DNA of 32,598 nucleotides from Natrialba taiwanensis DSM 12281 (GTDB lineage Archaea; Halobacteriota; Halobacteria; Halobacteriales; Natrialbaceae): NCBI RefSeq assembly GCF_000337595.1, contig NZ_AOIL01000052.1, forward strand, positions 82,162-114,759. The letters run 5' to 3'. Below, piece by piece: positions 15,356 through 25,618 of the stretch (the first letter of the stretch is position 1; every line of letters starts with the position of its first letter). The translations under genes were made by a program, and so were the position numbers. Below the pieces are notes generated by a model. That model searched no databases and was not told the DNA's origin. It saw nothing but the letters and a program-made list of their open reading frames with translations.

Positions 15356-15880
15356 TTACTTCTCGACGTCGAGCAGTGCCACGCGCTCGCGGACCAGCGC
15401 CGCGAGAGAGGCGTCCGTTGCGGCCCGTTCGGCGTCCGTGATGTCGAAAAACGTCTGGAGGATCCCCTTGTCTTGGTGATCGAGCGTCGGCTCGCTTCCT
15501 GCGAACGCCTCGAGTTCGGTCACCGCGGTGCGGGCGGCGTCGAGGTTGCTCTCGGTTTTGGAGTTCGAGTGTGGGGCAGCGTCGATGAGCACGACGGCTC
15601 GATTCTCGCCCTCGCCGACGCCCATCTCGAGTGCGCGGTCGATCTGTCGGCGACCGGCGGCGTACAGCAGGATCTCGACGGCACGGTCGCGGGCGACGTT
15701 TTCGTCCCGTTCGATGGCGCGGTCGGCGAGTTCAACTGCTCGTTCGAGGTGCCTGCGGTCGGCGACGTACCGAGCGTCGACGGTCTGGAGCGTCGTCCCG
15801 TGGCGTTCGCTGATCACGGTCAGGTCCGCGACGAACGAATCGATGTCGTCGATGTCGAGACGGCATTCGAGCAGGTCCAT
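15356..15880 (-). CDS. cgi121: KEOPS complex subunit Cgi121
   Basis: Small subunit of the KEOPS complex, which threonylcarbamoylates A37 of ANN-decoding tRNAs; Cgi121 binds the tRNA 3' CCA end and the kinase Bud32. The 174-residue protein has the family core: AVELADRAIERDENVARDRAVEILLYAAGRRQIDRALEMGVGEGENRAVVLID, including the EILLYAAGRRQI block by which I recognise it. Its start codon overlaps the hel308 stop by one base (TGATG), so the two are translationally coupled. Other KEOPS genes are not in the window. A family assignment by motif, supported by the known adjacency to helicase genes in haloarchaea. Confidence 0.85.
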   Translation of the reverse strand: MDLLECRLDIDDIDSFVADLTVISERHGTTLQTVDARYVADRRHLERAVELADRAIERDENVARDRAVEILLYAAGRRQIDRALEMGVGEGENRAVVLIDAAPHSNSKTESNLDAARTAVTELEAFAGSEPTLDHQDKGILQTFFDITDAERAATDASLAALVRERVALLDVEK

Positions 15881-18294
15881 CAGAAATCACCCAGGCTGGA
15901 TTGGCTGTCGTCCGCCTCGTCGTCGCTCTTGCTCGCGGCCGCGTCAGTTTCGCCTCCGTCACTCGAGTCAGCTGCCGAGGCGGAGCCGCCGTCGATCGGA
16001 ACCGGCTCGACGCCGTCCATCGATGGGTCCTCGCGGCCGGCGCTTTCGAGGATGTTCTCGGCCGTCTTCTCGCCCTTGAGAACGTGCAAGATGATTCTCT
16101 TGTCGGCCGTTCGAAGATCTGCAAGTTCCTCGATACCAGCCTCGTAGAGCCGGCGAGCACGCTTTCGGCCGATACCGCTCACCGAGACGAGTTCAAGGAG
16201 TTCCTCGCCGACGCCGTGTTCGACGCGGGCGCGGGCCTCGCGGACGGCGACGGTCCACTCGCTGTCGATTTCGGCTGCAAGCGATTCGGCGGCTCCGAGC
16301 AGCCACTCGGCGGTGTCGACCTTGCCGCGGAGGTCGCCGGGGCCGATCTTGTAGCGTTCGGTGATCGTCTCCTCGTTGTCCTCCGTGGCCCAATCCTCGA
16401 GCAGTGTACCGGTTTTGAGGGCGGCGAGCCAGTCCTCGAAGCGGCCTTCCTCGAACTCGCTGGGGGCGTCGCCCAGCAGTTCTGCCTCGCGCTCGTAGTA
16501 GAGTTCACCGAATTGTTCGTCCTCGCCCGAGCGCAGGTAGAGTTCGTACATATCGGGGGTACGCGAGACGAGTTGGTAGAGGCCGAGGGCGGTCGGGCGG
16601 TCGTCGGCGTCGTCGAGGCCGTGGACGATTTCGGCGGCGCTCATCGGATCGAGATAGAGCCGGGAAACGGTGTGGCCGAGGCTGGTGGCCTCGAGTTCTT
16701 CGTCCCGGCCGGTCGCGCTCTCGCTCCCGTCGCCGTCGGCCAGATCGGCCGCCGACGTGAACGCGCTCGCCGCGTCGGCGTCGGTGCCGAGGGTGTCTTC
16801 TAATCCGCCGCTGGACTCCGATGCGAGTGGCGTCTCGCGGTCGATGAACTCGTTACGCTCGAGGTAGTCGAGTACGTCGTCGGTCACCCGCTCGAGCCGT
16901 CCGGCCTCGCTCGACTGGCTGGCATAGAGGGTGGCTTCGAGGAACTCGAGGAGGCCTTCTCGCGTGCGGGCGAAGCCGGAGGCGATGGTCGCGAGGACGT
17001 GGGTCCGAAGCGCGGGCTCGGCGGCCAGTTTCGAGCGGACCGGCTCCGGATCGGCCCAGACGTAGCGGTCGAACAGTTCCTCGCTCTCGTCGTGGTTTTT
17101 CGCGAGTAGAACGGCCTCGCCGTAGGGGTCAAGCCCCGGGCGGCCGGCCCGTCCCATCATCTGGTGGACTTCGAGCACGTCGAGCGGCGACATTCCGCCC
17201 GCGCTGGGGTCGAAGCGCCGCCAGTCGCGCACGATGACGCGGCGGGCGGGCGTGTTCACGCCGGCGGCGAGCGTCGGCGTTGCGGAGATCACTTTGAGGA
17301 GGCGGTTGCGGAAGGCGTTCTCAACCAGGCTGCGCTGGGTACTCGAGAGGCCGGCGTGGTGAAAGGCCGACCCGCGTTCGACACAGTCGGCGAGATCCTG
17401 ACTCGTTTCCGTGTCGCTGTCCTCGCGGATTTCCGCGGCCAGTTCCTCCAGGTCGGTCCGCTCGCCGGCAGTTAGCTCCCGGCTCGAGACCTGCCCGAGA
17501 CGGCGAGCGGCGGCCTCTGCGTTGCGCCGCGAGTTCACGAAGACGAGCGAGGAGCCGCCCTCCTGCAGGATGTCCCGGACGAGCGCGGCCTCCTGTTTCT
17601 CGCCGCCGTCGACGGGGACCTCCCGGGTCGAGCCGTCGTCGAAGTTCAGGGCGTTGCCGTAGTGGACGCCCATCTGGAGGTCGATCGGCCGCCAGTCGGT
17701 GTCGACGAGGGAGGCGTCGAGCCAGTCGGCGAGTTCGTCCGCGTTGCCGACGGTCGCCGAGAGGGCGACGACCTGCAGTTGCGGGTTTAGTCGGCGGAGT
17801 TTGGCGAGGGTGACCTCGAGCGTGGGACCGCGATTTCGGTCGTCGATGAGGTGGACCTCGTCGCTGACGACGCAGGTGAGATCGGAGAGCCAGTCCGCGC
17901 CGTTGCGCACGAGCGAGTCGACCTTCTCGCTGGTCGCAACGACGATGTCCTTGGTCGCGAGCCAGTCGTTCGTGCTCTCGTAGTTGCCGGTCGCGACGCC
18001 GGTCGTCACGCCGAACTCCTCGTAGGCGTCGAACTCGGCCTTTTTTTCACTGGCCAGGGCTCGCAAGGGGACGATGTACAGTGCTTTCCCGCCGCGCTTT
18101 ACGGCGGAGAGCATCGACAGCGCGGCGATCATCGTTTTGCCGCTGGCGGTGGGGACGGCGGCGACGAGGTTCTCTCCGTCGGTTGCACCGGCCTCGACGG
18201 CCTCGGCTTGTGGCGGGTAGAGTTCCTCGATGCCGTCCCGCTGGAAGTGCGAAATCGCCCCGGGCGGGAGCCCCGACAGCTCCTCGACATTCAT
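15880..18294 (-). CDS. hel308: ATP-dependent DNA helicase Hel308
   Basis: Superfamily 2 Ski2-like 3'-5' helicase of 804 residues that acts on stalled replication forks and D-loops. Visible motifs: Q motif YPPQ at 26-29, Walker A PTASGKT at 48-54, DEVH at 145-148, SAT at 179-181, the HHAGLS motif IV region, and the [17 protein letters not shown] and [10 protein letters not shown] motifs V and VI. The winged-helix and ratchet domains follow, interrupted by an acidic insert near 495-535. A helix-hairpin-helix ([25 protein letters not shown]) sits near 715-740, and the tail is acidic and ends QSSLGDF, a PCNA-binding-like end. A TTTAAA element at about 18321 may be its promoter. Confidence 0.97.
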
Positions 18295-19974: not shown

Positions 19975-21027
19975 TTACGCGCGCAGCGATTCGATCGCGT
20001 CGGTAACGCCGTCGGCCACCGTGTCCCAGTCCGACTGCCTGATGTCGGTCGATTGTTCGATCTGAATCGTTTGTCCGGTCGGTGCGAGTTCGTTGAGCAC
20101 GTTCTCAGGGTTCGCTCCGGTGTAGGCCGTCGCGTCACGGCCGACGATCTCGACCGTTCGATCCGGAAGTCGTTCCGCAATGGCGTCTCTCACGGTGGCC
20201 TTGGCCGCTCGTTCGGCGGTTCCGCCGATGAGAATTCCGTCGTCGTCGTAGCCGTGGAAGGCAACGCCCCAGTCAAACTGCCGATCGAGCAGCGCATCCA
20301 GTGACGGGAACGATCGACGGTGGAGATCCGTCGAGTTCGTGTGCCAGCGGGTGAACGCACCTCCGCCCTCGTTGAATCCCGCACAGATCCATCCCGCGCC
20401 GCCGACCGCTTCGGCAACCCGGGTCGCCTGGAAGTCCGTCCCGTATTCGATGTATCCGCCGTGGGGCGCGATCACCGCGACGCCGTCACCATCGACGCCG
20501 TACTCGACGAACTCGTCGTTTAGTTTTCCCGCTTGCCGGGTATCGTAATTCGGATGGGCCGCCTGCGCGCCGATCGTCGCCGTCGTCGCATCGCTCGCTC
20601 CGATTCGATCGAGCCCGCTCGCAGTCAGTCGAAGCGTCTCGCCTTCATGGTCCGAAGCGACGGTGTACACTGCGTTTTCGATCCCATCGGCCGTCGCTTC
20701 GTATCCGATCCTGACCTGTTGCCCGATCGCCACCTGCTCGTTCTCGACCAACTGACATGGAACCGAACAGTACTGCTCCGAACTCGACCGTGATTTCCAG
20801 TCTGTGGCAGCCGTTTCAAGTGTCGCCTCCCAGTGATCGACGGTCTCACAACCGTCCGCGTACACCCACTGGTCGGAACCACTCTGCATCTTCGCCCGTG
20901 AGTCGGCGACTTGCGTCCGGACGCTGGTCGTCAATGCACCGATGCCGAGCAGCCCTGCGCCCGCCGCGATAATCCGCCGGCGCGAGCAAGTCTGCCGATC
21001 GCCGTCACCCGTCCCATTTTCACTCAT
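19975..21027 (-). CDS. Tat-exported poly-gamma-glutamate hydrolase family protein
   Basis: A 350-residue protein. The N terminus CSRRRIIAAGAGLLGIGALTT is a Tat-type signal (Arg16-18), so it should be exported. From about 160 it matches the poly-gamma-glutamate hydrolase family (Zn enzymes first known from Bacillus phages): VAVIAPHGGYIEYGTDFQA with His189 and Glu194, WICAGFN, RWHTNSTDLHRRSFPSLDALL with His229, and WGVAFHGYDDDGILIGG with His258. Family members cut gamma-glutamyl polymers. Residues 50-155 are an extra N-terminal domain with several cysteines (60, 87, 91), possibly a cell-wall or polymer-binding part. It is divergent from the ferredoxin gene. Substrate inferred from family only. 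Confidence 0.85.
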   Translation of the reverse strand: MSENGTGDGDRQTCSRRRIIAAGAGLLGIGALTTSVRTQVADSRAKMQSGSDQWVYADGCETVDHWEATLETAATDWKSRSSSEQYCSVPCQLVENEQVAIGQQVRIGYEATADGIENAVYTVASDHEGETLRLTASGLDRIGASDATTATIGAQAAHPNYDTRQAGKLNDEFVEYGVDGDGVAVIAPHGGYIEYGTDFQATRVAEAVGGAGWICAGFNEGGGAFTRWHTNSTDLHRRSFPSLDALLDRQFDWGVAFHGYDDDGILIGGTAERAAKATVRDAIAERLPDRTVEIVGRDATAYTGANPENVLNELAPTGQTIQIEQSTDIRQSDWDTVADGVTDAIESLRA

Positions 21028-21201: not shown

Positions 21202-21474
21202 ATGTCGAAGACGTACCAACCGTCGTCCATGCGAGTCGAGTTCGACGAGGACACCTGTATCGGGATGTACCAGTGCGTCGCCGAATGGGACGCCTTCGAG
21301 GAGGACAAATCGAAGGGCAAAGCGACGCTCGAAGGAAGCGAGGAGGTCGACGACGGCATTTTCGCCCGCGACGTTCCCGACGACGCTGAACTCGATGCGA
21401 AGTTCGCCGCCCGGACCTGTCCGGTCGACGCGATCACGATCTATGACGACGACGGCGAGCAGTTGATTCCCTGA
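21202..21474 (+). CDS. Single-cluster ferredoxin with three cluster cysteines (P450-type)
   Basis: A 90-residue protein. The cluster-binding part is DTCIGMYQCVAEWDAFEED with Cys19 and Cys25, and RTCPVDAITIYDDDGEQLIP with Cys73. The middle position of the usual CxxCxxC motif is Met22, so only three cysteines are available. This is the pattern of [3Fe-4S] ferredoxins that donate electrons to cytochromes P450, for example in Actinobacteria; a [4Fe-4S] cluster with a non-Cys ligand is the alternative. The P450 gene begins 754 bp downstream on the same strand, with the regulator gene between on the other strand. A start at ATG 21229 is also possible. Function as the P450 donor is inferred. Confidence 0.83.
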   Translation: MSKTYQPSSMRVEFDEDTCIGMYQCVAEWDAFEEDKSKGKATLEGSEEVDDGIFARDVPDDAELDAKFAARTCPVDAITIYDDDGEQLIP

Positions 21475-21490
21475 CTGACGCGTCGATTTC

Positions 21491-22147
21491 CTAGTAGTTC
21501 AGTGCTGCATCCACCAATTCTGTCTCGACCGTTCGGAGGAGCGTCGAGGCGGCACTCTCCGAACACTCGAGTGCTGTCGCAACCTCGGAAAGCGACGCCG
21601 TCCGTGGAATGTCGTAGTATCCTGCTTCTCGAGCCGCTTCCATCGCCTCGAACTGTCGTGCTGTCAACCGCCCAGCGAGCGTCTCGGCTGTTTGCTGGTG
21701 AGCGCTCACTCGCTCAACTTCGACACCGATATCCTCTGGAAACTGGCCGATCAGCCCCGAGAGGGCGTCGGGTTCTCCGAGCACGGTGACGTGAACGGTT
21801 TCTCGTCCAGTGTACACAATTGGCGGAACGAGTACAAGGCCGGGTTCGTCGAACGCGCCCAGCAGCGTTTCGTCAGCAGCGCGGACATCCATCACGGCGT
21901 ACGCGTAGAACGTGTCCCCATCGATCGGCATGAGTTCGAACCGATGGACGACATCCAAGTCGACCGCTGTCTCTCGGACTGCATCACAGTCGCCGACGAT
22001 CAGTGAGAGGAACCGCACCCGTTCCGTCTCGGCGTCGACGTGCCACGAAAGCAACTCCTCGCGGTGAACCTCGAGTTCGGCGTCGGGTGTGGGAATCGGA
22101 AGTTGCATTCGCTCCGGAAGGTGAAGGGTCAGATCCGTCGACTGCAT
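21491..22147 (-). CDS. Bat-type helix-turn-helix transcriptional regulator (HTH_10)
   Basis: A 218-residue protein with an N-terminal beta-rich sensor-like domain (MQSTDLTLHLPERMQLPIPT...) and a C-terminal HTH_10 domain at about 162-215: LTARQFEAMEAAREAGYYDIPRTASLSEVATALECSESAASTLLRTVE. This is the bacterio-opsin-activator type found in dozens of copies in haloarchaea. The ligand is unknown. It lies between the ferredoxin and P450 genes in opposite orientation, so it probably regulates them or itself. A TATA box about 24 bp before ATG 22147 makes the transcript leaderless and supports this start over the upstream in-frame ATG at 22219. Confidence 0.88.
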   Translation of the reverse strand: MQSTDLTLHLPERMQLPIPTPDAELEVHREELLSWHVDAETERVRFLSLIVGDCDAVRETAVDLDVVHRFELMPIDGDTFYAYAVMDVRAADETLLGAFDEPGLVLVPPIVYTGRETVHVTVLGEPDALSGLIGQFPEDIGVEVERVSAHQQTAETLAGRLTARQFEAMEAAREAGYYDIPRTASLSEVATALECSESAASTLLRTVETELVDAALNY

Positions 22148-22158
22148 ACCGACACATT

Positions 22159-22182
22159 CTGAACCAGTATAAAGAAGTTCAG
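22159..22182. promoter_or_regulatory. Inverted repeat flanking the TATA box in the HTH_10/P450 intergenic region
   Basis: CTGAAC (22159-22164) and GTTCAG (22177-22182) form a six-base inverted repeat with a 12-base spacer. The spacer holds GTATAAAG (22167-22174), the TATA box of the regulator gene and possibly of the P450 gene on the other strand. This looks like an operator for autoregulation; that is inference from position. Confidence 0.5.
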
Positions 22183-22227
22183 TGCTTCGAGAAAACGTCG
22201 ACATGGGTTCCGGTCTCACTGTCAGTT

Positions 22228-23664
22228 ATGTTCGAGTCCGAGACTGACCCCTGCACTGACACCGAACTCGATTCCGCCACTGAGACCGATACCCACTCAC
22301 CGCAGGCTGACGCTGTGAACTCCTCGGGGTCTGATCTCTCGACCGCAGACCGACCGCCGGGACCGCGAGGACTCCCGCTGATTGGGAGTACGCTATCGAT
22401 CGCCCGGGATCCATTCTCGTTCGTCGAGTCGGCTCGAGAATATGGCGATATCGCGTCCTATCGGGCGTACGGCACCGAGTTCGCACTCGTCTTCGACCCT
22501 CATGTCGTCGAAACAGTTCTCGTCTCGCGCTCGGACGAGTTCAGAAAGGGCGAGTTCGAGACTGCCTTTGGCGAACTCGTCGCCCCTGAGGGGATCGCGT
22601 TCACCGAGGGCAAGCGGTGGCGTCGCCAGCGCCAGTTGCTGCAATCGTCGTTTACGCCCGATCACGTTCGTGCCGCCGCTGACGAGATCGTCGCAGAGGC
22701 GAATGCATTCGTCGACGACTGGGACGATGGTGAGAGAGTCGCGCTCCGGGACACGATGTCGACGTACACCCTCCGCATCCTCATGCGAACGCTGTTCGAT
22801 CTTCCGCTCGAGGACGACCGCGCAACGATCGTCAGGCGGGCGGCGAACGCCGTGAACACCTACGCGTCTCCGAAGCGACTCGCGCTGGGTTCGATCCTGC
22901 CGTCGTGGCTGCCGGATCGCGTCGAACGCGAGTACGAGGATGCGATGACAGACCTCGAAACACTCACCACGGAACTCGTCGAGACCCGCCGTTCGGCGGA
23001 TTCGACGGGTGAGGATCTCCTCTCGATACTGGCGCGGGCTGTGTACCCAGACGGCTCGCGACTCTCCCCCGAAACTGTGCGAGATCAACTCGTCACGTTC
23101 CTCTTTGCCGGCCACGAGACGACCGCGACGACGCTCGCAATCGCATGCTGGCTGCTCGCGGACAATCCGCAAGTCCACGCCGAACTCGAGCGCGAACTCG
23201 CCGCTGTCTGCGGTGATCGGAAGCCAGATGCCGGCGATCTCGCGAGCCTCGACTACACCGAAGCCGTTCTCAGGGAGGCGATGCGACTCTATCCCCCAAT
23301 CACTGGAATTTATCGCGAACCCCTGACGGACACGGCACTTGCCGGGTTTCGAATTTCGTCCGGGACAACGCTGCAACTCTCGGTGTACGGTATTCACCGC
23401 GACGATCGGTGGTGGGCGGATCCCGAAGCGTTTTGCCCCGAACGCTGGCTCGTCGACGCCGACCGACCCGAGTACGCGTACTTTCCCTTCGGCGGCGGTC
23501 CCCGTCATTGCCTTGGGATGCGCTTTGCAATGGTCGAACTACAGCTCGCGCTCGCATCTATTATGCGCCGCGTCGAGTTCGAGTGTGTCACTCCAACTCT
23601 CGAGCCATCGCTCGGTGTAACGCTTGACCCAGGATCGGTCGAGACCCGAGTTCGGAAACGATAG
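22228..23664 (+). CDS. Cytochrome P450
   Basis: Haem monooxygenase of 478 residues; the typical P450 landmarks are all intact. The N-terminal PPGPRGLPLIGS (43-54) precedes the substrate-binding region. The I-helix oxygen-activation motif AGHETT is at 294-299, the K-helix ExxR is Glu350-Arg353, and the haem-binding FPFGGGPRHCLG loop has Cys428. There is no membrane anchor; the first 40 residues are acidic and disordered, so it is soluble. Soluble P450s of this class usually take electrons from a ferredoxin, and one with three cysteines lies 754 bp upstream. The ATG at 22228 is chosen because upstream sequence overlaps the regulator promoter. Substrate unknown. Confidence 0.96.
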   Translation: MFESETDPCTDTELDSATETDTHSPQADAVNSSGSDLSTADRPPGPRGLPLIGSTLSIARDPFSFVESAREYGDIASYRAYGTEFALVFDPHVVETVLVSRSDEFRKGEFETAFGELVAPEGIAFTEGKRWRRQRQLLQSSFTPDHVRAAADEIVAEANAFVDDWDDGERVALRDTMSTYTLRILMRTLFDLPLEDDRATIVRRAANAVNTYASPKRLALGSILPSWLPDRVEREYEDAMTDLETLTTELVETRRSADSTGEDLLSILARAVYPDGSRLSPETVRDQLVTFLFAGHETTATTLAIACWLLADNPQVHAELERELAAVCGDRKPDAGDLASLDYTEAVLREAMRLYPPITGIYREPLTDTALAGFRISSGTTLQLSVYGIHRDDRWWADPEAFCPERWLVDADRPEYAYFPFGGGPRHCLGMRFAMVELQLALASIMRRVEFECVTPTLEPSLGVTLDPGSVETRVRKR

Positions 23665-23681: not shown

Positions 23682-24356
23682 TCAGCTACAGATCCGTGCC
23701 ACCACATCATGCAGATCCTCTACTTCGTAGGTTGGGGATGTTTCGAACGCAACGTCTCGACAGTGTGCTCGGCGAACGAACACCGAGTCGAGTCCGGCCC
23801 GCTCGGCCGCGACGATATCGCTTTCGCTGTCGCCGACGTAGAGCGCCGACTCCGCCCCCAGATCGGCCAGCGCCCGCTCAAGATAGTGCGTGTTCGGCTT
23901 TTTCAACCGCAGGCTCTCGACCGTCATCTCGCGCCCGTAGTAGGTCTCGAAGAACGCCTCGAGTTCGAAAAACGTCAGGATGAACTCGATCGTGCTGTGG
24001 TGGTTGTTGCTCACGACGCCGCAGTCCACTGGGAGGTCGGCGATCGCGGTGCTGTCGTCGTAGCACCCTCGCGTGCCGTCTCTAAACGCGTCGAGCTGGG
24101 AATATTCGTCGTGGCGCTCGCGCGCCTCCCAGAACGTCTCGGCGTCGAGATCGTACGCGGTGCAAATCTCGTCCAGCGCGGCGGGCGTGACGCCGCTGAC
24201 GATGGCGTCGACGTGCTGCCGGCTGGGATCGTCGACGCCGACCGCTCGAAACGCGGCCCGCGCCGCCGCGGATTGGGTATCGGCCGACGGGGGTTCGACG
24301 AGGACGCCGTCGTTGTCGAAGAGGACGGCGTCGTACGTGGGTTCCGGTGATGTCAC
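23682..24356 (-). CDS. HAD-family hydrolase
   Basis: A 224-residue haloacid-dehalogenase-fold phosphatase. All four motifs are visible: DNDGVLV with nucleophile Asp14 and Asp16, VVSNNHHSTI, KKPNTHYLERAL with the catalytic lysine, and YVGDSESDIVAAERAGL. Between motifs 1 and 2 is a helical cap of about 80 residues containing TRGCYDD, which places it in the C1-cap group of phosphoglycolate-phosphatase-like enzymes. The substrate cannot be inferred; members act on small phosphorylated metabolites. It converges with the P450 gene, 17 bp apart. A low-complexity spacer of about 250 bp separates it from mdh upstream on the same strand. Confidence 0.92.
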   Translation of the reverse strand: MTSPEPTYDAVLFDNDGVLVEPPSADTQSAAARAAFRAVGVDDPSRQHVDAIVSGVTPAALDEICTAYDLDAETFWEARERHDEYSQLDAFRDGTRGCYDDSTAIADLPVDCGVVSNNHHSTIEFILTFFELEAFFETYYGREMTVESLRLKKPNTHYLERALADLGAESALYVGDSESDIVAAERAGLDSVFVRRAHCRDVAFETSPTYEVEDLHDVVARICS

Positions 24357-24613: not shown

Positions 24614-25528
24614 TCAGGCGATCTTCTCGTACTGCTCTGAGAGCTTCTCCGCCGCCTCGCCGAGTTCATTGCGCTCGAACTCGGTCAGTTCCCATTCGAC
24701 GATCTCTTCGACACCGTTCGATCCCAACTTCGCGGGCACGCCAAAGGCCGTCTCCTCGTGGCCGAACTCGCCCTCGAGTTTCACACTCGCCGGAAGCACT
24801 TCGCCCGTATCGCGGAGGATCGCCTCGACCATGTGGCCGACGCCGGTCGCCGGCCCCCACTCCGTTGCGCCCTTCTTCTCGATGACGTTCATCGCCGAAG
24901 TCTGGAGTTCCTCCAAGAGTTCGTCCTTCTCGTCGTCGCTGAACTCGTGGTCCTGGCCGTCGACGCGGACCTTCGAGAAGACGGGGACCTGCGCATCGCC
25001 GTGCTCGCCGAGGATGGTCGCCTCGACGTTCTGGACGGGAGCGTCGTAACGCTTTGAGATCACGTAGCGGAATCGGGCGGAGTCGAGGCGGCCGCCGAAG
25101 CCGATCACCTTCTCTCGGGCGCGCTCGCCCGTCTCGTAGAGGTGGCGGTTTAGCAGGTCGACGGGGTTCGACGTGGTGACGGTGATGAAGTCGTCGTTGT
25201 ACTCCGCCACGGAGGAGCCGATATCCTCCATGATCGGCGCGTTGTCGCCCGCGAGGTCGATCCGGGTCTGGCCGGGCTGGCGCGGGATGCCGGCCGTGAT
25301 GACGACGACATCCGACCCCTCGGTGTCGGCGTAGTCGCCCTGCCGAATCGTCGTGTTCGAGTCGTAGGCGATGCCGTGGTTCGCGTCGGCGGCCTGGCCG
25401 ATCGTGTCGTCTTCCTTGTCCGGGATGTCGACGAACACGAGTTCGTCCGCGATGTCCCGGAGCGCGATGTTGTACCCTGCAGCGGCCCCGACGGTGCCGG
25501 CCGCACCGATCACGCTAACTTTCGTCAT
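24614..25528 (-). CDS. mdh: Malate dehydrogenase (halophilic, LDH-like type)
   Basis: NAD-dependent oxidation of malate to oxaloacetate in the TCA cycle. The 304-residue protein begins [20 protein letters not shown] with the NAD-binding GxxGxxG at 8-14. Long blocks I recall from the well-studied Haloarcula marismortui enzyme recur: [67 protein letters not shown] with the catalytic His, and [20 protein letters not shown]. The acidic surface fits salt adaptation of that tetrameric enzyme. An in-frame ATG at 25555 would add nine residues that do not match known N termini. It is divergent from the SLOG-family gene across a 90-bp shared promoter region. Confidence 0.97.
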
Positions 25529-25618
25529 ACCATCTCGTGGTGCGCTTGTATACACGTTAAATCCGTCGAAACCGGTGCTTCTATAGCCGCCAGTCTCCCA
25601 GTAGTGGGCAGTTTACAC
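25529..25618. promoter_or_regulatory. Divergent promoter region of mdh and the SLOG-family gene
   Basis: Ninety bases between two start codons. On the minus strand ATTTAACGTGTATACAA lies about 20-32 bp before mdh, and on the plus strand TTCTATAGCC lies about 33 bp before the other gene. Both are plausible TATA elements; neither is a perfect consensus. Confidence 0.4.

Follow-up and report, generated by a model that had tools for sequence, protein, structure and literature searches.

The cytochrome P450 gene in this window, the whole 32,598-nucleotide stretch that was analysed, and the divergent regulator gene beside it are best explained as a regulated two-gene cassette, which was probably inserted once next to an older ferredoxin gene that is not dedicated to it; we consider this explanation, taken as a whole, likely to be correct. 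The individual parts are of known kinds, and the new piece is the unit of regulator, putative operator and P450. Archaeal P450s are almost all orphans, with substrate, electron donor and regulation not known (PMC9962201). A predicted operator with a dedicated regulator would offer a direct experimental handle on one of them, and the ligand of the regulator would be a likely clue to the P450 substrate.

Three genes lie close together in the window: a 3Fe-4S-type, Fer4_15 ferredoxin of 90 aa (21202–21474, + strand), a transcription regulator of 218 aa with HVO_0513_N and HTH_10 domains (21491–22147, − strand) and a soluble P450 of 478 aa (22228–23664, + strand). All three reading frames are intact and carry their diagnostic motifs, and with the Pfam matches they bear out the arrangement given by an earlier, sequence-only reading of this DNA, in which the regulator, on the opposite strand, separates the ferredoxin from the P450. 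The regulator converges on the ferredoxin across a 16 bp gap and diverges from the P450 across 80 bp, and the ferredoxin and P450 are separate transcription units. Within the shared promoter of regulator and P450 lies a conserved element, TATAAAGAAGTTCAGTGCTTCGAGAAAACGTCGA (22168–22201, unstranded), consisting of a TATA box (22168–22173) followed by a putative operator. Three flanking genes fall outside the module: a helicase of 804 aa, named by eye (15880–18294, − strand), which borders the older ferredoxin block on its left in tblastn synteny comparisons of most family loci and other families; a HAD-type hydrolase (23682–24356, − strand; Pfam, synteny), found between P450 and malate dehydrogenase in a subset of genomes and retained in some P450-less relatives; and, as the right flank, a lactate/malate dehydrogenase family gene (24614–25555, − strand; Pfam, synteny). 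A Tat-signal-like protein of the PF05908 poly-gamma-glutamate hydrolase family is encoded upstream of the ferredoxin (19975–21027, − strand), and only some relatives have one. The source genome is Natrialba-like and measures 4.6 Mb; it contains six P450 loci, and among those inspected only the window P450 has an adjacent regulator of the HVO_0513_N/HTH_10 kind. The nearest other P450 in the genome is ~38–39% identical to the window P450, which itself shares 97% identity with that of Natrialba asiatica DSM 12278.

The P450 matches the superfamily profile PF00067 (E=5.9e-86) and, as the sequence-only reading had claimed, contains all catalytic motifs: the I-helix AGxET motif (AGHETT, 294), ExxR (EAMR, 350), PxRx (PERW, 404) and the FxxGxxxCxG heme motif (FGGGPRHCLG, 421). 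No membrane anchor is evident in the protein, of which residues 1–34 are of low confidence in a structure model (pLDDT 82.6) that otherwise matches the P450 fold. The top PDB match by both sequence and fold is CYP184A1 of Streptomyces avermitilis (7wzl/7wzm; 33% identity, TM 0.82), though this enzyme is bacterial, and the nearest solved structures comprise CYP184A1 with oleic acid, the CYP97 carotenoid hydroxylases and P450 BM3. Two NCBIfam equivalogs, albaflavenone monooxygenase and pentalenene oxygenase, were rejected as identities for the protein, their scores falling far under cut-off. Because fatty acids and carotenoids are ligands or substrates of the enzymes with the nearest structures, and because regulator-less P450 relatives in two genomes (G059 and G065) sit between two prenyltransferase-like genes (named by eye), our best guess by analogy is that the substrate may be isoprenoid or fatty-acid-like. 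CYP174A1, a Halobacterium P450 that affects carotenoid and purple-membrane levels (PMC6212597), may be likened to the window P450 as a haloarchaeal enzyme for which a hydrophobic substrate is expected.

The regulator combines an N-terminal HVO_0513_N domain (PF24278, 2.6e-17) with a C-terminal HTH_10 domain (PF04967, 5.8e-13, residues 161–212). The label ‘bat-type’ given to it previously therefore holds for its DNA-binding half, which belongs to the C-terminal PF04967 family common to Bat and other haloarchaeal HTH_10 regulators, but not for its N-terminal half; unlike Bat, it also appears to be a local, one-promoter regulator. No trustworthy match emerged when a model of the regulator was used for a fold search, and a literature search on HVO_0513 found no papers.

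That the regulator and P450 form a conserved, self-contained pair with its own control site is strongly supported by comparative sequence evidence. In a survey of 125 Natrialbaceae genomes from 29 genera, with regulator orthologues defined at ≥48% identity, the two genes are adjacent and divergent in 44 (counted from the survey tables); two further genomes hold a damaged or altered P450 (G046, and G072, where it is split over two frames). In a sample of 16 genomes that come from three further families of the order and carry orthologous P450s at 47–61% identity, the regulator adjoins the P450 at every locus (L144–L159), and more distant P450s (40–48%) likewise adjoin related regulators. The pair remains together at differing genomic sites: in many of the outside-family genomes, and in genus g2 of the Natrialbaceae, it lies amid genes for biotin carboxylase, BirA, carboxyltransferase and an SLC6-type transporter (named by eye). 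A second, more distant regulator/P450 pair often stands in tandem at biotin carboxylase/carboxyltransferase loci, also named by eye (L145, L146, L148, L149 and L160–L163). P450 relatives at 54% identity that lack an HTH_10 regulator (L127:6468-7865 and L133:6572-7969) are flanked by two UbiA-type prenyltransferase-like genes (by eye), which gives a hint as to substrate.

The regulator–P450 intergenic regions have in common the element TATAAAgAAGTTCAGTGCTTCGnGnnAAcnnCGA, at a fixed place ~17–26 bp from the regulator start codon, and its position is the same in 57 regions. Scanning of the loci with a position weight matrix (PWM) covering the part after the TATA box, and so lacking the TATA columns, still set the element sites apart from everything else: 55 of 58 pair loci scored above 14 bits, as did none of 22 loci without the pair, the leave-one-out median was 32.8, and additional matches within pair loci were few and reached at most 17 bits. 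The three pair loci L122, L138 and L163 have a strongly diverged element. In the source genome, pattern matching with two patterns at up to two mismatches returned no second good site, further matches being at chance level. A sister element, TATA-N4-CTAG-N4-TTCGACnGAA, occupies the matching place in 27 of 29 related pairs, whose regulators are 31–41% and P450s ~40–47% identical; it keeps the 12 bp TATA–TTCG spacing and differs in the first half-site (TTCAGTG vs CTAG), a change at fixed spacing that would look like co-evolution of regulator and operator. A local regulator would be expected to show conserved divergent pairing with its target and a conserved site restricted to the promoter that the two genes share; both are seen here, and they bear out the earlier suggestion that this P450 has an HTH_10 regulator of its own.

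Seen from the P450, the site is downstream of the TATA box, and seen from the regulator it is upstream, with TATAAA, read towards the P450, ~60 bp before the P450 ATG, and TTTATA, read towards the regulator, ~21–26 bp before the regulator ATG. Leaderless transcripts are common in haloarchaea, and the latter distance fits such a transcript. With the TATA box at its start, the element may owe some of its conservation to basal promoter sequence.

We propose that the regulator would bind this one site and control both genes, and that a protein bound downstream of the TATA box on the P450 side would hinder the pre-initiation complex. Repression of the P450 would be lifted once the N-terminal domain of the regulator senses a hydrophobic compound, probably the isoprenoid or fatty-acid-like substrate of the P450 itself. 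Because the site extends from the TATA box in the downstream direction on the P450 side, a repressor rather than an activator is our best guess, lightly held, as Bat, the best-known HTH_10 regulator, is an activator. Indeed, the HTH_10 protein could instead activate the P450 by binding the element together with the transcription machinery, in the manner of Bat, which has the same type of DNA-binding domain and induces bop (PMC6212597, PMC3184054); we regard this as a close rival, though slightly less likely, as the element stands at an unfavourable spot for an activator of the P450. More broadly, we give about an even chance to the existence of a haloarchaeal P450 lineage with a dedicated HVO_0513_N/HTH_10 regulator, in which the N-terminal domain senses substrate and the half-site has co-evolved at fixed TATA spacing. 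If so, this would represent an archaeal substrate-induced P450 switch, with a logic comparable to that of bacterial inducible P450 systems.

The neighbouring ferredoxin presents a different picture. It matches Fer4_15 (E=3.9e-21) and has exactly three cysteines (19, 25 and 73; CX5CX47CP), with Met in place of the fourth ligand in all 55 orthologues read (IGMYQ/IGMFQ). This cysteine spacing is identical to that of the published archaeal subtype 11 (3Fe-4SST11, PMC11430716), predicting a 3Fe-4S cluster; that subtype is the most numerous archaeal 3Fe-4S subtype, with 41 members in 40 species, or about one per genome (PMC9962201). Here, too, the gene is present in 124 of 125 family genomes, nearly always once, and accompanies the cassette in every family genome counted with one. 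At least 13 near-complete genomes, including one from the window’s own genus (G045; the others are G023, G029, G030, G033, G050, G060, G063, G064, G068, G075, G076 and G079), contain the ferredoxin and no P450 of any family by profile search, and it must therefore have a P450-independent role. Conversely, G127 has a P450 and no match to the window ferredoxin at E≤1e-5. The published ferredoxin–CYP174 association involves ferredoxins of subtype 1 (CX5CX38CP) and of a 7Fe-8S subtype rather than of subtype 11 (PMC11430716, PMC9962201), and we did not consider it to apply to the window ferredoxin. A second Fer4_15 ferredoxin, with a spacing of about CX5CX56CP, is encoded elsewhere in the same genome (G000:C9:227251-227484, L199).

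With or without a P450, the ferredoxin belongs to a block in the order helicase(−), ferredoxin(+), malate dehydrogenase(−). Where the cassette is absent the dehydrogenase directly follows the ferredoxin; the two are near neighbours in 13 cassette-less family loci, nine of them at 63–191 bp. In several other families, too, the ferredoxin has the helicase nearby, and the full order is present in G181, whose P450 pair is elsewhere. As this block exists either way, the cassette is best read as an insertion, one that probably occurred once in the Natrialbaceae, between ferredoxin and malate dehydrogenase. The pair lies beside the ferredoxin in 35 of 44 family genomes, always in the same order and orientation, with a ferredoxin–regulator gap of 34 bp at the median and 0.7–2.8 kb in six of these 35 loci; it lies elsewhere in the other nine (G001, G002, G004, G006, G013, G014, G049, G100 and G108), and at none of the 16 loci outside the family does it adjoin the ferredoxin, which is elsewhere in the genome. 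On the P450 tree, in which support for deep nodes is moderate, ferredoxin linkage takes three changes, against a mean of 23 when shuffled, which would fit a single gain and two losses. Remnants of cassette deletion were found in four genomes, in each of which the ferredoxin is intact: a C-terminal piece of the regulator directly next to a piece of the P450 (G107), a regulator piece (G044), a P450 C-terminal piece (G047) and a regulator body fused to a P450 C-terminal piece (G089). The persistence of the linkage through much of the family’s diversity could reflect some selection. In genus g10, a gene for a secreted-looking protein of ~370–400 aa with a Tat-type leader is inserted between ferredoxin and regulator (L121:7953-9152, L140:7176-8279).

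Being near-universal and present in genomes without any P450, the ferredoxin is unlikely to be dedicated to the P450 system. We envisage an old general electron carrier with a job independent of the P450, perhaps serving as one of several P450 donors; it could feed the P450, and its gene position is no argument that it does. A reading compatible with our own, to which we assign a reasonable but less than even chance, would make this general carrier also a main physiological donor of the window P450 and of other P450s, with no dedicated evolution. The ubiquity of this CX5C..CP 3Fe-4S ferredoxin and its presence alongside every cassette counted in the family would suit such a role; against it, haloarchaea also encode many 2Fe-2S ferredoxins (PMC9962201), and G127 manages a P450 with no match to this one.

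The sequence-only reading had gone further and, on position and cysteine pattern, counted the ferredoxin as the third member of the module. Its observation of the three genes is confirmed and its interpretation partly supported, the comparative evidence upholding the P450–regulator half and not the ferredoxin half. The neighbourhood survey it called for recovers a conserved pair and a ferredoxin adjacency that is specific to one lineage; the finding it had named as fatal, a P450 without the ferredoxin in most genomes, did not literally emerge because the ferredoxin is near-universal, and the adjacency is lineage-specific nonetheless. Survey, deletion scars, P450-less genomes and motif scan together lead us to reject the three-gene module as a conserved unit. 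It is accordingly improbable that the window P450 has its cognate donor in this ferredoxin and that all three genes have stayed together for that reason, as in the Fdx–CYP51 and FdxE–CYP143 pairs of Mycobacterium tuberculosis (PMC9868604). The resemblance is real, as the ferredoxins that lie beside bacterial P450s are of the CX5C..CP 3Fe-4S type and the intact cassette often lies within 35 bp of the ferredoxin. In the actinobacterial pairs, however, the genes are adjacent or in one operon and the structure of a redox complex is available, whereas here a regulator intervenes, transcription is separate, and the ferredoxin occurs without, and outlives deletion of, the P450. Roughly one insertion accounts for the linkage; the ferredoxin has no copy of the element upstream (best PWM score 3.0, against 2.8 for shuffles), as judged by motif scan rather than expression data; another CX5C..CP ferredoxin is available in the genome; and malate dehydrogenase follows the P450 in all 35 linked loci, such that an argument from position would equally nominate it as partner. 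Adjacency to the window ferredoxin should therefore not serve to assign the electron donor. Weaker still is the notion that chance and basal promoter sequence account for the shared-promoter element and that the pairing is mere synteny without regulation, since, although the element overlaps the TATA box and the TATA columns are among its strongest, the matrix discriminates sites without them, the sister element combines a different half-site with identical spacing, and the pair is kept together wherever it resides.

The ferredoxin may nevertheless have control sequences of its own. Many ferredoxin promoters, in genomes with and without a P450, contain an element like GATAATAAAAnCACGATGACATGTGGT (seen by eye, for example in L112, L116, L137 and L174), which is perhaps a ferredoxin-specific control site. 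At L126, part of the ferredoxin N-terminus (MKVEFDEDVCIGMYQ) is duplicated within ~200 bp upstream of the intact ferredoxin gene.
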